IMG/VR virus record: IMGVR_UViG_3300018421_000195
Span: 1-24,772 of that record
Length of the DNA: 24,772 nt
Strand: one strand, 5' to 3'
Source of the DNA: a virus
Shown: in pieces, positions 3,001-24,772 of the stretch
How positions within the stretch are numbered: position 1 is the first letter of the stretch
How the letters are laid out: the number at the start of each line of letters is the position of its first letter
Notes under the pieces: generated by a model
What the model was told of the DNA's origin: nothing
The model's database searches: none
Seen by the model: the letters and a program-made list of their open reading frames with translations, nothing else
Position numbers and translations under genes: made by a program

Positions 3001-5168
3001 TAAAACCAGACGGTACGTATAATGTTATTGGTAAAGTAGCAAATCTTTATAGAACTTCAGGAGTCGTGAGGTTTGATATTATTAAATCTCAGAATGGTTC
3101 TATTATTGATGGATTAGATTTTGTATTTGCCGTTGAGGGAAGATATACTAGAACATTTACATTACCATGGTCAGAATTTACCTCCGCATCTCTTCAATAT
3201 AAAGTTGATGATTATGGAAGAAAAATTCTAAGCGATGAAAATTCTCTATGGTCTGGCACTATTGTCAGAAAATACTATAGAAATCCATTTGTAAGTCTGT
3301 CAAATGGTGATAAGATTCGTGTAGAAGGAGAAGAAAAGTTTAGAAATATCAAAGTTCTTCCATCTAATACTACATCAAAAGACGGTAGAGATGGAGAACA
3401 ACTTTCTGATGATATCTACGGGGCAGTTCAAGTTGAAACTTATGCTGGAGTTACTCGTGGAGAAGGTCTAAGTGTTGTAGCAAATATTGAAAATGGAAAA
3501 GTAGTTTCTCTTTCATGGAATCAGAGAAGCTGGAATCCTCTCACCCAACCAACAGCATATCAATATTTTACTCCACCTGTTTTAGAATTCGTACCAGAAA
3601 ATGGAGAAGGTGGCGGAGCAAGGGCTGCTGTTATTGTAAGCAAGGGACAAGTTGTTAGTGTTGATCTTCTTGATGGCGGATCTGGATATACCAAGGCACC
3701 AAAAGTTGTAGTTGCTAGAAGATATGAAATTCTAAATGAAAGAGATATTGGTGTATCTCTAATTAACATTGGAATAAACCCATATGTTGAAAGCAGTGGT
3801 ATGACTGCAGTTTCAACAATTAATGTCCTTGGAAATCAAGTTTCTGGTGTTAACTCTTTCACATCTGTATTCTTCAATAGTCCTATTGACACCGACAGAG
3901 TTATTACTGCCGAGATTCAATTACTAAGAGAATCTGGTGATGAACTTCAAAAAGCAGCATCAGAATTTATTGGTATTAGAGATCAAGATCCAAACGATGT
4001 ACAAATCATTGATGTATTCTATGATGCTACTGTTGTATCTGCCGAAATCCAGGGTGTTCTATCTACAAATTCCATTTCATCTGTAAGTAGAACAATTACA
4101 ACTTCATTTGAGAATTTAATTCCAAATGATGCTATTTCCAATATCAACTTCTTTGAGGTTGGCGCTTATCTCGATGTTGATCTCGATCCTGCTGACACTA
4201 TTATATACATTCCAGATACCACAAAATTCAAGACAAGTGGATATCTTCTAATTGGAAATGAAGTTGTACGCTACATGCGTAAACTATTTGATCGTTTCAT
4301 CAAAGTTGAAAGAGGAGTAAACAACACAACTCCACAATTCTGGGCATCAGGAACTTTCTTAAGACAAATTCCAGATCCTGTATCTGTTGCCTTTGGTGGC
4401 ATTGCTGTTATTGAATCCGATGTTGCTGTTGTCTCCATCGGACTAGAGACTCAAATATCTAGAGAATCTATCATTCCTAGACAAGCAGAATCCCAGATTA
4501 CACAGCAGCATAATACTACAACAGAAGTAGTTATCACCCCACCACCAGGAGGAGCAGTAGATGGATACGAAGAATCACTCTTCTTAGTAGACCCTGTTCC
4601 AGTAAGAGGATCAAATACTACTGGTGGTCATGATGGTGACGTTGACCTTATTGATGTTAATGGTGAATACTATGTTACCTTGAGAGATACTACACAACAA
4701 TTAATCATTAATGAATTATTTGGTTCTGCACAACAATACATTGGTCAATATGCAAAAACAAATGCTGGACCAACTATTGGTAATTTTGATCAAATTTTAG
4801 ATGATGGAACATGTAATGTTTCAGGAATAACATTGTTAGAATTAGACTTCCATTATCCTGCATTGACCATTAGAGATTTTGTTGAAAGATCTGAATCAAG
4901 TTATACTTTATCGGGTGACTATTTCAATTTGACGAATGCTTCTATTCAAAATCCAGTTACGATAACTTCTTCATCTGGAACAATTGGATCTAGTGTTGTT
5001 GTTCAGGATACTACATATTTCCCACCATCTGGATATCTATTTACTTCTGGTGGAACAGTGATTCAATATACTAGTAAAACAGCAACTACATTCGAAGGTT
5101 GTAGTTTCACAAGGGGTGCAAATACTATTAGTAGTGGTGATGAACTCATTCCGTTTGCAATCACCTAA
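1..5168 (+). CDS. 7: gp7-like baseplate wedge protein with very long C-terminal extension (5' end outside window)
   Basis: The frame is open from the first full codon at nt 3 to TAA at 5166-5168, giving 1721 visible residues; the ATG at 387 is internal because the upstream codons are coding and in frame. Nt 260-365 encodes SYVIKSK, then W and HPAGF, which matches the C-terminal part of T4 gp7 as I remember it (SYYVMKIKS, then W and HPVGF). The gene lies directly upstream of gene 8, as in T4. T4 gp7 joins gp8, gp10, gp6, gp53 and gp25 in the baseplate wedge. T4 gp7 ends about 150 residues after this motif; here about 1600 follow. They hold three LDGVLQ-type modules (705-795, 2396-2525, 2711-2800), two RDLGY modules (1035-1260, 1737-2120), one GM-type repeat (1275-1435), a GSGYT repeat (3600-3710) and two DTTxFxxSGYL modules (4183-4365, 4973-5150). 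The gp7 call is good for the N-terminal part shown; the role of the extension is unknown. Confidence 0.8.
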   Translation, partial: VSRSVVSEWRLGSNLLKLENIRGTLREDVVIEGLVSRASGTVKGIYASTFTNNVTAFFDNVGYFKSDKGKLGVSNQKLIDSYFYQDYSYVIKSKTPIDQWRDLIKSTTHPAGFKLFGQVDIETNAPVEMPAEMPKASHFSVIQLWDPDKNKITVENTRRTVTQIIQKTENQRIRKGVGSAATSEFNFNESRAFTFTLNGSFDGYYDSNGILQGTKTFQLLDDQGQPFTPSSAKNLIVTLDGIIQEPEVAYTVSGDNIVFSQPPLGANQKLTGNNLNELTDYAGVTFYGRYFNFKDNQYNTRYFKKIRNIFQRNGRWLDSANQIERNKTFIIEECIGYGRSKYPSLDWSTKQDDYERDLGYILDAYQHDIRFGGNVKTVDYVSYFNQDDDYDYITNNKTESLGIIKYATNLAKLSVRNWDVVEASVSYIQGSNIVTVQDTNRLAVGMHISSGRAFASGTKIASIDSDTQITLSSYALANSGGLGGAPSGITDLSGSTGGSDFVMPTSTGEVTPGNQFAVDPGDILQAPISFSSSDSAFFFFSGLNNGTFYDASNLIQGNKLYLQEEISEYIYDTYNLPQGDKTKCKRDLGYLIDAIVYHLRLGGNERVVEFARLYYTNAGYPYGETLTYINRSTEETNAAIDAWTKLGEKMILAMRNNLGAGTYTTIAPYVDLTVSTDTQVPYCAEVASAITTYIDVVKNILANGTGAVDSVGINPSKPGYWTDTKPTIDYNLIPDPQLPYNGECDDVVSAIDSLYENVDDVLDSQLVSKTLPDYVDGENKIFELYWEDGSEVYTEEDEDLFLTINAVLQRPKYNADYPGGDAYYIDRNTIPNKLIFDVAPIWDQDFGAKSIGEPTAVEKVVGIGVGNYKRLTIDYNLVNGVKSGPFLILDVEDNTVQSVEEKEYLYVFLDGVLQREGYSYTVSGPNIYFNVPIKKEMKIDMRYLYGRDVGQILNIYDFAPDTYFATGTLTINTTSSLIDDYTTYRWMGDLSGNGVHLWQVKPDGTYNVIGKVANLYRTSGVVRFDIIKSQNGSIIDGLDFVFAVEGRYTRTFTLPWSEFTSASLQYKVDDYGRKILSDENSLWSGTIVRKYYRNPFVSLSNGDKIRVEGEEKFRNIKVLPSNTTSKDGRDGEQLSDDIYGAVQVETYAGVTRGEGLSVVANIENGKVVSLSWNQRSWNPLTQPTAYQYFTPPVLEFVPENGEGGGARAAVIVSKGQVVSVDLLDGGSGYTKAPKVVVARRYEILNERDIGVSLINIGINPYVESSGMTAVSTINVLGNQVSGVNSFTSVFFNSPIDTDRVITAEIQLLRESGDELQKAASEFIGIRDQDPNDVQIIDVFYDATVVSAEIQGVLSTNSISSVSRTITTSFENLIPNDAISNINFFEVGAYLDVDLDPADTIIYIPDTTKFKTSGYLLIGNEVVRYMRKLFDRFIKVERGVNNTTPQFWASGTFLRQIPDPVSVAFGGIAVIESDVAVVSIGLETQISRESIIPRQAESQITQQHNTTTEVVITPPPGGAVDGYEESLFLVDPVPVRGSNTTGGHDGDVDLIDVNGEYYVTLRDTTQQLIINELFGSAQQYIGQYAKTNAGPTIGNFDQILDDGTCNVSGITLLELDFHYPALTIRDFVERSESSYTLSGDYFNLTNASIQNPVTITSSSGTIGSSVVVQDTTYFPPSGYLFTSGGTVIQYTSKTATTFEGCSFTRGANTISSGDELIPFAIT

Positions 5169-7135: not shown

Positions 7136-10100
7136 ATGCCTCAGAAGACTAACCTAAATGTAAATCCTTATTATGAGGACTTTGACGCGAATAAGAATTT
7201 CTACAAAATTCTTTTCCGTCCTGGATACTCAATTCAAGGTAGAGAATTAACTCAACTTCAATCGATTCTCCAAAATCAGGTTGAAAGTTTTGGTAGATAT
7301 GCATTTAAACAGGGACAATTAGTTATTCCTGGAGAGGTTGCTCTTAATACAAAGTTAGATTTTGTGAAGTTGTCTTCAGTCACTGAAGTTGCTATAAACG
7401 ATGGTAATGATATTGTTTATAGAAAGTACGATATCACTCAACTTGTTGGACAGCAACTCAGAGGTCTTACCTCTGGAGTTAAAGCAACTGTGTTGGAAGC
7501 AAACTTAGCAACTGCAAATTCTTCTGATACATTATATGTAAACTACCTCAATAGTGGCAACTCAAATACGGAAGAAACTTTTAGACAGGGCGAAACTTTA
7601 GAAGTAATCGATGGTGTCAATACACCTTTGATGGTTGTTGGTACTGACGGTAGTGTTCTTCCCACTAGTATTGACGTAACAGATCCAGAATCTGGTTTAA
7701 CTACATCTCTAGATAGTCCCGCAATGGGATATGGTTCTGCCGTTAAGGTAGAAGAAGGCATTTATTTTGTAAATGGATATTTTGTTCGCAACGATGAACA
7801 ACTCCTTGTTATTGATGAATACTACAATAAACCTTCTGCAAAAGTTGGATTCACAATTGTTGAGGAAATTGTAACCCCAGAAGAAGATGCAAGTCTTTAT
7901 GATAATGCAATCGGTTCTTCAAACTATACTGCTCCTGGGGCTCATAGACTTAAGATTAGTCTGTCTCTAAAAGAATTTGCATTAAATGCAATTACAGATA
8001 AGAATTTTATTCAACTCCTAACAGTATCGAAGGGTGTAGTTCAAAGAAAAGTTTCTGCTGCTGATTATACTCTTCTTGAGCAAACTCTTGCTCGTAGGAC
8101 ATTTGATGAAAGTGGTGATTATGTAGTAGATAGTTTTGCTATTGATATAAGAGAATATGCTCAGAAAGAAAGTAACATGGGCATCTACTCAGTAGATGAA
8201 TTTGGATTATATAATGGTTTGACAGATGCCATGGCATCTAAGAAAATGATTGCCAGTGTTGGACCTGGAAAAGCATATATTAAAGGATATGAAATTGTAA
8301 ATAAAGAAACTAAGTATCTTGAGATCAACAAAGCAAGAGAAAGCTTATCATCAGACAACGTAACTCTTAAAACAAAGGGACTTCCAACTTATAGTATTTC
8401 TAATGTTTTTGGAAGTGTTCCTCTAAACAAAGAGGGATCTCAGTTAACTGCATATCCAACTGTATATCTTTACTCATTATTTAATGATGGTTATGTTGGA
8501 TTAAATGGAACAGAGTCCGATTCTAACTATCGACAAACAATTCAAAGAAGAGGTCTTTTCTTTGATTCTAATATCGGAATCAAGACCATAACTTTGGAAA
8601 TCGTTGATGTTAATATTCCCATCACATCTATTATTCCATCCGAATTAGAAACAACATTTGCAAAACTTTGGTATGTTAAAACAAGAGCAGGAACTAATGT
8701 TGTTGGAAGTGTTGATGTTCTTTCTTACACTAAGGTTTTCAAACCACTAAGAAATTCTGGAACTTCTGAAGAGTCTAGATTTTTTGAAGTTACTGTTGCT
8801 GGATTAAAAACAGATTTAGAAAATGTATTTAAAGAATATGATGAAAGTTCTGATAATAAACAGAGAAAATTATTCTTAACTCAGAATGACGCTCTTGGAG
8901 ATGAGAAAGAGGGTCTTTCTTCAACTGTGTTTGCAAACATTATGGATTATAGTGATACTATTACTCCTGTAATTGGAACTGCAAAACCAAGTAATTTTTA
9001 CTTACAACGCAGGGGAGATGGATTTAATCCAGATTCAAGTATTGTAATATCTAAAGGTATTCTTCCCCAAGGAACATCTGCGTACAATGCTACTTTTGGA
9101 TTGTCATATTTCGATCCACAGTTCTTCACAAAAATAAAATTAGAATCTGTTCCACCAGAAAACACATATGATGTTGGTGTATATGTCTATGGTTTAACTA
9201 GTGGTGCCTATGGTGTAGTTGAGGGAGCTCCTGCTGGAGTATATTCAACTGGCAAACTTTTATATGTAAAGACTCTTTCTGGAAAATTTGTCCCTGGAGA
9301 AACCATTAGAGATGAAGAAGGCAATCTTGTAAAAATTGCTCAGGAAAACACACTGTCACACTTTATTGTTCAAAATAGAGGACTAGGATATCCCAATTCT
9401 TCCAGCCTTATTATTGATGGTGTTGAATACGATCAATCAAAAATTGAAATTGGATTCCAAGGTCAAGGAATTTATAAAGTAGAAATTTTAGATAGAACTT
9501 CCGTAAATACTCAATATGCAAGACCACCTGTAGTAACAGTTGATCCTGGAACAACCACTCCAACGGAGGCAGCTGCGGTAGTTCCTGTGTTGAATAAAAA
9601 CACAGTAACAACTTACACACCACAAAACGTAAAATCTTTTGGTTCAACTTACGGATCTGGAGGAGAAAACAAGTTTACATGTGATGTTGTAATTGATGAT
9701 AGAGTATATGCAGATATTTCTCCAGTTACAGACTTTACTTTCTTTGGATCAAAAGGATCTAAATTTTTAGAATCCACTAGTTTTAGTGCTGACGCAAGTT
9801 CTGTGGTTCAACAAGGAGATCTTGTACAATTCTCAGATGCTTCTAATAATACTATTAGAGCAATTGTACAATATGCAACTGTTCAACAAGGATCTTCGAA
9901 GACGAGAATTTATCTCGATGAAACTCTTTATGATGACGTAACTAGCACTACAGTTGTTCGCTTGCGTCCAAAAGTAGCAAATTCCAATTCAGGAACACTA
10001 CTCTTCCCAACTGGTAGTAAGCAAGTATCACAAATTTCTGCTGGAACAGAAGATAGTAAGATTAAATATTTCTTCCGCAGAGATTTTGTAACCACTGGTT

Positions 10101-15283: not shown

Positions 15284-15499
15284 ATGGGTTACCTCAAAGT
15301 TAAAGGGCATGATGGTCTTGTCAGAGACGAGACCACAGGTGCTATCTTGAATTACGACGATTCTGCCATCCAAGCAAGGCGTAAACAAAAACAATTGAAT
15401 TCCGCGTTGGAAGACATAAATATGTTGAAGGATGAAGTCTCTGAAATCAAATCCCTACTTAGAGAGTTAATAAGAAATGCCAGCAATTCAAGTCGCTAG
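15284..15499 (+). CDS. Small coiled-coil protein, possible structural or assembly factor
   Basis: A 71-residue protein starting nine bases after the giant gene. MGYLKVKGHDGLVRD and GAILNYDDSA form the N-terminal half. The rest is charged and helical with hydrophobic spacing typical of a coiled coil (LEDINMLKDEVSEIKSLLREL). Small proteins of this pattern occur among structural genes of T4-like marine phages, but I know no assigned function. Its last 23 bases overlap the next gene in another frame, suggesting translational coupling. It ends in TAG (15497-15499), followed one codon later by an in-frame TGA. No clear Shine-Dalgarno sequence precedes it. Confidence 0.8.
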   Translation: MGYLKVKGHDGLVRDETTGAILNYDDSAIQARRKQKQLNSALEDINMLKDEVSEIKSLLRELIRNASNSSR

Positions 15500-21371: not shown

Positions 21372-22721
21372 ATGAGTTTTAAGTTCAACTCTGACAGGGA
21401 AAGAATTAGTGGCGTCAATCCACAAATCGTTGGAAGTAACGAAACTACGATTAGGATTGGTTCTGGTTCGGATGAGATTGAAGTCCTAAGGGCTCAAAAA
21501 GATTCTGTTACTGGATTGCCTCGTGTTGGTATCAATAGAACTGGAAGACGAGTAGAAAGTATATCCGTAAATGAGAATCAAGGTGGTTCTGGTTATACCC
21601 TGGTTCCTGATGTAACTCTAAGTGCTCCAGATCTTAGTGACGGTGTTCAGGCTCTCGCTTCAGCAGTTATTAGTAATGGTTCTGTTGTTGCTATTATTGT
21701 TGACAATCCTGGTGATGGTTATCTTACTGCTCCAACAGTAACTATCACTGGAGGTAATGGTTCTGGTGCTGCAGCGACTGCCAATCTAGACACAGTTGAT
21801 TATGAATTGGATATCAATGGTGCTATTAGAACTTCTACATCTATCATTTCAGATACGGCAAGAATTCTAAACCTAGATATTGACAACTTTGTTACTCCAG
21901 ATGCCGATATTAGAGCTCCATATTTAAAAACATGGGCAAACGGAACTGGAATTCTTTGGGTTCCAAACGTCATTCTTCAAGTTGGTGCTTACAGATATTA
22001 TGGTCAAAACATCTATGAAGTTGTAACTGCTGGTCAAACTGGAACAACTCCACCAACACACACTCAAGGCACTGCCACTAACGGTGAAGCTGAGTTAATG
22101 CATATTGGTTATCGTGTAGATGACACTAATGCTGGACATTATGGTATTACTGGCGATAGTGGTGTTTTCCCAAGATCCATTACACCACAATTAGGAGACC
22201 GATCAAATAAAATTGCCACTACAGAATATGTTCTGAACTTGGCAACAAATGATGTTGGTGGTCGTATTTATGTTTCTCAACAAATTGGTAGTGATAACAA
22301 CGATGGTCGCTCTGCTGTAAATCCAGTTAGAACTATTAAGAAGGCAGCGCAGTTAGCTTGGCAAACTCCTGGGGTAAAAGAATCTATTATTATTTCTGGT
22401 GGTGACTATGTAGAAGATAACCCAATTTCTCTGCCACCAGATTGTTCTATTGTTGGTGATAACCTTCGTCTGGTTATTATTAGACCAGCAAACCCACGCA
22501 AACACATGATGAAGTTTGGTGATAAGAACTACGTCATTGGTGTTACTTATAGAGACCAAATTGATAGTGCTGGAGATCCTGTGGCAACATGGGATTATGC
22601 CATGGTCTTTGATGATAAACAAAGAATCTACTACGACTCAACAACTGGTGGAGATTTTGAGAGAGATTTTCCAGTAGGTCATCAAATTTTTGGACCAGAT
22701 AAAATCAGAGTTGCATTCTAG
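21372..22721 (+). CDS. Tail-fibre-like protein, N-terminal part, ended by an in-frame TAG
   Basis: 449 residues up to TAG at 22719-22721, after which the same frame stays open to the window edge. The N-terminus (MSFKFNSDRERISGVNP, then VGINRTGRRVE) is the usual start of a large cyanomyovirus fibre-type protein. Next come two GSGYT/DGYLTAP glycine-rich repeats (nt 21558-21800), a CBM-like module (21918-22110: NIYEVVTAGQTG, PTHTQG, TNGEAEL), the fibre motif GDRSNKIATTEYV (about 22194-22232), and the first coils of a right-handed beta-helix (from about 22260: GSDNNDGRS, RTIKKAAQLA, IIISGGDYVEDNPI, CSIVGDNLR). The stop lies inside the helix region, not at a natural domain end, so the 449-residue product looks truncated. 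A CTAAATA motif and GGCGGGAG precede the start. Confidence 0.75.
   Translation: MSFKFNSDRERISGVNPQIVGSNETTIRIGSGSDEIEVLRAQKDSVTGLPRVGINRTGRRVESISVNENQGGSGYTLVPDVTLSAPDLSDGVQALASAVISNGSVVAIIVDNPGDGYLTAPTVTITGGNGSGAAATANLDTVDYELDINGAIRTSTSIISDTARILNLDIDNFVTPDADIRAPYLKTWANGTGILWVPNVILQVGAYRYYGQNIYEVVTAGQTGTTPPTHTQGTATNGEAELMHIGYRVDDTNAGHYGITGDSGVFPRSITPQLGDRSNKIATTEYVLNLATNDVGGRIYVSQQIGSDNNDGRSAVNPVRTIKKAAQLAWQTPGVKESIIISGGDYVEDNPISLPPDCSIVGDNLRLVIIRPANPRKHMMKFGDKNYVIGVTYRDQIDSAGDPVATWDYAMVFDDKQRIYYDSTTGGDFERDFPVGHQIFGPDKIRVAF
21918..22110 (+). other. CBM-like module upstream of the amber codon
   Basis: Pattern VGAYRYYGQNIYEV, AGQTGTTPPTHTQG, TNGEAELMH. The best match is the module at 22926-23080, downstream of the TAG in the same frame (VVWANDYVYTV, AGTSGSQPPTHSSG, TNGTVDF). 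A third copy is in the neighbouring gene at 19582-19758. Confidence 0.5.
22260..22540 (+). other. Start of a parallel beta-helix (pectin-lyase-like) domain
   Basis: IYVSQQIGSDNNDGRS, PVRTIKKAAQLA, ESIIISGGDYVEDNPI and CSIVGDNLRLVIIRP follow the classic N-terminal cap of right-handed beta-helices: G-x-D-x-x-DG, P-x-x-T-I-x-x-A, I-x-I-x-x-G-x-Y-x-E, S-I-V-GD. Such domains form fibre shafts or bind and cleave polysaccharide. No catalytic residues can be assigned here. Confidence 0.7.
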
Positions 22722-24772
22722 TCAAATACTGGATTGGCAAATCTAATTCCTGGTCTGAGAGTTCGCGGTGTAAACACGGGTTCTGTTGCTGCTCTCACTG
22801 ACGTATCTTTCACCACAACTACAGGGGCAAACGCATATACATCAGGATCTGTAGATGCTGACATTGTAAGTGGTTCTTTCAACACTGGCGAAACTTTCCA
22901 ATACGGCGGAACAGGAACTGTTCCATGGGAAGCTTCTACTGCCTACACACTAGGACAAGTAGTTTGGGCAAATGATTATGTTTATACGGTAACTACCGCT
23001 GGTACTTCTGGATCTCAACCACCAACGCACTCCAGTGGTAGTGCCACAAATGGAACAGTAGATTTTGATTATCTGAGAGATGCTTATGAGTTTGTTTCTA
23101 CAGACATTCGTTCCATTAGAGCAGAAGGTGAAGTTGTATCTGTAAATGAAGATCTAGTAAGCGAACTACCAATTTCCAGAATTGATTTTGCTCTACAGGG
23201 AACAGATGCTGTAGCGACTGGTGGTTATCAATCTGAGCAATTTGGAAATGCTGAAGATCTTGGTGGTATTGTTTTCTATACGAATGCTCTAGTTGGAAGA
23301 CAAAATGTTCACGATTTCAAAGAAGGACAGGAAATTGTAATCTCTGGTCTTCCTACATCAAACCCAGATCTTTCCATGTTGAATGGAAAGCAAAGAATTT
23401 ATAAAGTATTTGAAGATGCTGATGGAAGAGCAAGAAGATTTGTAATTCCAAAGAAACTTCCATCACTGACAGATTCTAACTTTGATCCAGGTCAGTTCGC
23501 CACGGTTTCTTCATACGAGAAGTCAATTACACTAACACTTCTCAACTCTCCAAACAAATTCTCGATGGCAACTCCTACTGAAAGGAGATATCAAGATGCT
23601 TGTTTGCTAATTCGTAATAACATTGACTTTATCACAGATGAAGTTTATTTGCGTTTAGTAGCAGAATTTCCAAACCTCGTAGTTCCTGGTGGTCCTACAA
23701 AATGCCGTAGAGACATTGGACACTTTATCAATTCTGTTGTTAGAGACCTCCAGTTTGGAGGCAACTACAATGTAATTGAAGCAGCAGAATACTATGTCCA
23801 AGGAACACAAATTGGATATGTTGATACTGAAATCATCGAAACCGTAAGAGCATTTGAATATGCTAGAGAATTGATGATCTATGCGATGTGCAATTGGAGA
23901 ACTGGAAATAGAACTACAGTAGATCCAATTTACGTCCCACAGTATTCCTCTGTAACAAGATATTTTGATGACACTGTTATCACAGCAACTGCGGGATCTC
24001 CTGCATGTGATGATGTAAGATCTGCTATTGATACACTCTCATATTTGTTTGTTGATGTTCTTGCAAACAATGCATCTGGAACTGTTTTAGATGCTGCTTA
24101 TCTAATTGCTAGAAACGAGACTTTTATCGCTGAGGAAGCACTTGGATATGCTGAAGCACAATATCCTGCTTTAGGACTATCTGCTGGCGATCAGACGAAG
24201 TGTAAGAGAGATATTGGTTACATTCTAGAAGGACTTATCAGAGACCTTGTATTGGGCGGTAATGCGGGTATTGTAAATGCTGCCGAATTTTATTTCACTG
24301 GAACTGAACTCACAGGTATTCCACAGAGCGAACTTGGACCAACGATCTATGCATTCTCTAAGGTAAAAGAACTTGCCATTTTGGCAATGCGTAACTGGAA
24401 AACTGGAGATGGAACTGGTCCTGTCTATACACCAGTTTATTCTGGCACTTCTTTATTCACAGATGCCACAATTCTTGTAGATGCTGCTACACCCATTTGT
24501 GCTGGTGTTGAAAGTGCTATCACAACAGAAATGGAACTTCTAGAAGACATTCTAGATGGAACAATTTCCCCTGGTGCTACAAGCAGAACTTATGGCACTT
24601 TGCACGATACATCTTCAATTATTTCATATCCAGATTCAACAATCTATGACTCTGAGAATAAGAGAGTAACTCCAAGAGCAGACTATGATGATTATCCAAT
24701 CATTGAAGCATCACCATACACTCAGAACTCTTCTGTTATCTCTTTCCTAGGTGGTGGCGGTGCTCTGGTTGA
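22722..24772 (+). CDS. Continuation of the tail-fibre-like protein after the TAG (3' end outside window)
   Basis: Codon by codon, the frame of the 21372 gene shows no stop from 22722 to the last base, adding about 683 residues. It opens with SNTGLANLIPGLRVRG, a natural continuation of the beta-helix region. Then come a CBM-like module (22926-23080), a mixed region with DFKEGQEIVISGLP, and two RDIGY modules (23697-24090 and 24193-24576), each with paired cysteines. No good independent start is seen: the first in-frame ATG is at 23376, far inside, and the TTG at 22734 has no ribosome site. It may be produced by readthrough, be the dead half of a broken gene, or be one intact gene with a base error at 22719. 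The coding nature is strongly supported; its expression is not. Confidence 0.7.
22926..23080 (+). other. CBM-like module downstream of the amber codon
   Basis: STAYTLGQVVWANDYVYTV, AGTSGSQPPTHSSG, ATNGTVDF. It shares the order of motifs with 21918-22110 and 19582-19758. An intact domain here shows that the sequence after the TAG is still under coding constraint or was so recently. Confidence 0.5.
23697..24576 (+). repeat. Two RDIGY paired-cysteine modules
   Basis: Two units of about 125 residues (23697-24090 and 24193-24576): TKC-R/K-RDIG, hydrophobic helix, DL-x-x-GGN, AAE-x-Y, a second helix ending AM-x-NW-x-TG, Y-x-P-x-Y, then a second Cys just before a V-x-SAI helix. The same module occurs at 1737-2120 (TKCKRDLGY) and, without the first Cys, at 1035-1260 in the gp7-like protein. 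Confidence 0.7.

Follow-up and report, generated by a model that had tools for sequence, protein, structure and literature searches.

The single in-frame TAG codon in the tail-fibre gene described here is, with a probability of about 0.93 on sequence comparisons, an isolated nonsense change, either a base error in the consensus or a recent and probably deleterious mutation; the figure applies to the two jointly, as they are not separable. The gene lies in a linear virus record of 24,772 bases (IMGVR_UViG_3300018421_000195), which was analysed over its whole length and is referred to below as the window. Judged by its gene content, the window covers the part of a T4-like marine cyanophage genome that encodes the baseplate and the tail fibre. 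The genes match virion proteins of T4-like cyanophages, and comprise a large structural protein, a gp8-like baseplate wedge protein, very large structural proteins with a gene of 71 codons between them, a 168-residue virion protein and the tail fibre. The closest named phage by DNA is the Synechococcus phage S-RSM4 (78% identity across half of the window), and the four closest relatives show 79–81% DNA identity, so that even the best stands at only about 81%. A degenerate DNA pattern search over the stop site in the viral_contigs collection, directed at a near-identical strain, returned only three relatives that were already known. The stop itself is most likely ordinary and of little import, and the modules encoded behind it could matter more. 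The features discussed are listed in Table 1.

Table 1. Positions of the features of the window that are discussed in the text.
Feature	Position	Strand	Basis or remark
71-residue virion protein gene ending in TAG	15284..15499	+	phrog_473
Upstream tail-fibre segment, 449 codons	21372..22718	+	phrog_5342 positions 1-446, E 1.3e-256; unbroken in relatives
Beta domain, confidently modelled, beginning at the stop position	22698..23120 (about)	+	model; holds Pam1-tailspike-like module
In-frame TAG, only in this record	22719..22721	+	Gln in 80/88 distinct relatives, stop in 0
Downstream segment of the same gene, 683 codons, cut by window end	22722..24770	+	phrog_5342, E 2.7e-272; dN/dS 0.11-0.135
Predicted phycobiliprotein-fold module 1, C-x-R-D motif	23583..24068	+	model, fold search, profiles
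Predicted phycobiliprotein-fold module 2, C-x-R-D motif	24081..24560	+	model, fold search, profiles

One stop in a conserved fibre gene

The frame that starts at ATG 21372 is closed only once, at codon 450, and then runs open to the end of the window; the initial annotation, made from the letters of the window alone, was right in calling this TAG the only one in the frame. Both halves of the frame match the tail-fibre family phrog_5342, in order, and the frame is unbroken in every relative, so that the two open frames have not come to lie together by chance. Similar modules are visible in the translation on either side of the stop, as had been claimed, and the 683 downstream codons hold no second lesion.

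The sequence around the stop, 110 residues to either side, was aligned with 147 related loci, some of which overlap on one contig; these collapse to 88 distinct sequences. None of the 147 loci has a stop there. Glutamine is encoded in 127 (CAA in 85 and CAG in 42), while the others have Thr, Ser, Asp or Val, and Gln is likewise the residue in 80 of the 88 distinct sequences and in all six isolates. The earlier guess that the codon normally specifies Gln was thus correct, and the alignment to cyanophage homologues that had been proposed as a check showed a stop in none of them. In the six isolates (S-RSM4 and five others) the fibre gene is one coding sequence of 8.8–10.1 kb. Against the four nearest relatives, dN/dS is 0.085–0.148 upstream and 0.110–0.135 downstream, without an abrupt change at the stop, i.e. 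purifying selection is equal on its two sides. The downstream half has therefore not decayed, as judged by dN/dS and by the intact frame, and the change must have arisen recently, be an error or be read through. A chimeric assembly joined at the stop was considered and is not favoured, as there is no break at this position in the identity to the nearest relatives.

Taken together, the uniqueness of the stop, the intact relatives, the conserved Gln, the equal constraint on both sides and the ordinary role of TAG as a terminator among these phages (see below) point to an error or a recent mutation. The fibre gene would normally be one unbroken gene of 8.8–10.1 kb, in which a single-base change at the conserved Gln codon gave rise to TAG. 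The metagenomic consensus may be in error at this base, or the change may be a real and recent mutation in this genome or in a minority of the population. If the stop is real, the fibre would end after 449 residues and would lose the beta domain, the phycobiliprotein-fold modules and all distal parts; such a truncation would probably be deleterious, presumably through loss of function.

A stop in this place could also mark a true split into two genes, or an old pseudogene, and its very presence is what speaks for these. The first in-frame start past the stop is TTG 22734, and inspection by eye found no Shine-Dalgarno-like sequence at the proper distance from it, in keeping with the initial annotation, which had seen neither a ribosome site nor an early start for the second half. 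The lack of a ribosome site and of a good start argues against a second gene, as does the single coding sequence in the isolates; and the downstream dN/dS is not raised, nor is there a frameshift or a further stop. A split or a pseudogene is already at odds with the dN/dS comparison and is hardly credible.

The frequency of such interruptions was assessed by scanning the related loci for pairs of open segments in the same frame that are divided by one stop, with homologues required to span the stop. The long open segments covered came to about 540,000 distinct residues, and in these only the window and one other record (L030, IMGVR_UViG_3300024296_000009) were found. The latter has an isolated TGA at 7282–7284 in the same fibre gene family, and contigs 99.7% and 99.9% identical to it carry a sense codon at that site. 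Distant tblastn matches of the upstream gene with internal stops were also seen (L002, L053, L076 and L084-L086; all TAA, at 20–32% identity), and none of these was kept by the stricter stop-spanning scan. With one other case per about 540,000 distinct residues, such splits are rare and that of the window is somewhat unexpected, but the window had been chosen for having one. In its genes there are 3160 ways of reaching a stop codon by one base change, of which 805 give TAG, so that a lone hit requires no special mechanism. Sporadic single-base stops do occur in such records, and the differing stop codons and positions of the two cases are what errors or private mutations would be expected to give.

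Readthrough and recoding

In programmed amber readthrough, most ribosomes would stop at 22719 to give a short fibre and a few would continue to give a long one. The region was modelled with the stop read as Gln (22227–23231), the model being reliable only for approximately residues 158–298. The stop codon, residue 165 of the model, falls in the first strand (residues 159–165) of a beta domain, part of which resembles the receptor-binding domain of the tailspike of cyanophage Pam1 (7eea; probability 1.00, 33% identity over 58 columns). A similar stretch occurs upstream of the stop, at about codons 190–250 of the fibre gene. The beta-helix that the initial annotation had placed around the stop was not confirmed, as the stretch upstream of the stop was modelled poorly (pLDDT below 50). 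The position in frame and at a domain edge, and the purifying selection on the downstream half, are what readthrough would lead one to expect. However, the selection is accounted for equally well by a recent change, and a programmed signal should be conserved, yet no homologue (0/147) has the stop. Folding of the RNA surrounding the stop is no stronger than that of shuffled sequences (z -0.65), and the short form would be without the distal parts that all relatives have. On this evidence programmed readthrough is highly improbable. Promoter and terminator scans across the fibre gene gave no more candidates than shuffled sequences did, and a literature search for amber readthrough in the fibres of phages, cyanophages included, returned nothing relevant.

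The remaining explanation is a phage that reads TAG as Gln (genetic code 15), or suppression of the stop by a tRNA of the phage or the host. Marine Synechococcus uses code 11, which speaks against it. As the initial annotation had stated, the translations of the other large genes in the window contain no in-frame TAG, and there is thus one such codon in about 24 kb of structural genes, where code 15 would be marked by many in late genes. For Gln the window genes use CAA 199 times and CAG 73 times, against one TAG where Gln is expected. The stops of the window genes are TAA, TGA, TAA, TAG, TAA and TGA. The TAG is that of the 71-residue gene (15497–15499) and is backed up by TGA one codon further on, as previously noted. 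Homologues of this gene stop at the corresponding position, or a few codons from it, with TAA, TAG or TGA; since the three are exchanged, TAG is a working terminator in this phage group. The window contains no tRNA gene, and none of the 29 tRNA matches in S-RSM4 and two near-complete 190-kb relatives has a CUA anticodon, one of the 29 having an anticodon of which only two bases were called. The latter, in one of the 190-kb relatives (L186:1360-1436), is reported by ARAGORN with the anticodon ca. The suggested check for suppressor tRNAs, in the window and in these three near-complete relatives, therefore offered no support for suppression. In favour of recoding it can be said that the usual residue at the site is the one for which TAG stands in code-15 phages (PMC9523058); the balance nevertheless leaves recoding or suppression extremely improbable.

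Four options had thus been offered at the outset. Base error and recent nonsense mutation are supported, whereas amber readthrough and a TAG-suppressing phage or host are not, given a stop shared with no relative, near-complete relatives in which no CUA tRNA was seen, ordinary use of TAG as a stop and RNA of no special structure. The case shows that, when one stop interrupts a frame in a phage contig from a metagenome, a comparison with relatives should come before any proposal of readthrough or recoding.

Phycobiliprotein-like modules behind the stop

The downstream half includes two tandem helical modules (23547–24587; AF2 model with pLDDT 85.6 and pTM 0.83). A phmmer search of this half against the PDB gave matches at chance level only (uridine phosphorylase, E 0.05) and was uninformative, so that profile and fold searches were needed. 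Among the best 21 Foldseek matches in the PDB, 20 bear the name of a phycobiliprotein and one that of a "bacterial fluorescent protein"; the probability is 1.00 and the best E value 1.7e-3, with none below 0.001. VIA-align superposition on phycobiliproteins gave Z values of 15–17, to be read against the approximately Z 13 that helical folds may reach through arrangement alone, and the better-fitting matches lie within 1.8–3.0 A across 131–161 residues. The Pfam family PF00502 scores 23.7 and 26.4 bits for stretches with both modules (cut-off 22.2) and 16.3 bits, under the cut-off, for module 1 alone; at E 0.01 it matches 11 of 26 relatives. A profile built from these 26 relatives hit mostly PDB entries for the alpha chains of phycoerythrin and phycocyanin (best E 3.5e-4), and the C-x-R-D motif of the modules fell opposite that of phycoerythrin alpha chains. 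A joint alignment (A3) of modules that differ widely was of poor quality and was left out. Phycobiliproteins anchor the bilin at this Cys, and their Asp is in contact with it. Across 103 clusters of phage modules (less than 80% identity between clusters), 98 retain the Cys and all 103 the Asp. A phycobiliprotein fold and a distant homology are well supported for the modules by these profiles and predicted structures.

Many cyanophages carry the module family in their virion proteins, and the phage module profile matches four places in the window and 6–10 in each of the six isolates. The further copies in the window lie in the gene ending at 5168 (about 939–1274 and 1632–2114), the first of which (at about 942–1274) is without the Cys of the motif. 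Among 50,697 phage records, 348 contain the module; apart from one marine single-cell virus, all of these are named for Synechococcus, Prochlorococcus or cyanophage. PF00502 was found in one of 14 control genomes, that of Synechococcus elongatus, and in eight of nine cyanophage records at E 0.01, two of them over the cut-off. A plasmid search with module 2 gave no match. An open-access literature search found no account of phycobiliprotein-like domains in phage virions, which is no proof of novelty.

If the tandem C-x-R-D virion domains bound bilins, virions would be pigmented and would supply a phage-encoded substrate for ho1, pebS, pcyA and cpeT. Bilin binding by the modules is speculation from motif and fold, and the full proposal is unlikely. 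The modules may equally be borrowed structural units that share ancestry with phycobiliproteins and hold no pigment, or mimics that dock to parts of the host phycobilisome; each fits the data as well. Published work describes the role of the bilin-synthesis genes of cyanophages as a mystery (PMC3037559) and, in phages that infect Prochlorococcus, a host that lacks standard phycobilisomes, as unclear (PMC2984593). Apart from one podovirus, the phages that carry HO, PcyA, PebS and CpeT are myoviruses (PMC10452541). Bilin binding, if true, would offer a possible answer to this mystery, and the likeness of virion domains to bilin-binding phycobiliproteins raises a simple question that can be tested, namely whether virions or expressed domains carry bilins.

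Comparison with known systems

Code-15 phages, crAss-like and others, share with the window a TAG where Gln is expected (PMC9523058, PMC10607447, PMC11210395). They differ in having many in-frame TAGs, 41 ORFs being affected in phAss-1 (PMC10607447), and in that about half of them, although not all, carry a Sup-CTA tRNA (PMC11210395), whereas here there is one TAG and no such tRNA was seen in the relatives. The parallel case of IMGVR_UViG_3300024296_000009 is likewise one stop in frame, in a gene of the fibre family and in one contig only; in contrast to the window, its stop is TGA, lies at another position and can be compared with nearly identical contigs that have a sense codon. The S-RSM4 tail-fibre protein (CAR63343.1, phrog_5342) is the product of the same gene, with the same gene order and start, and matches both halves of the window gene. 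Unlike the latter, it is encoded by a single unbroken coding sequence of 8766 bp, with a Gln codon at the site of the stop.
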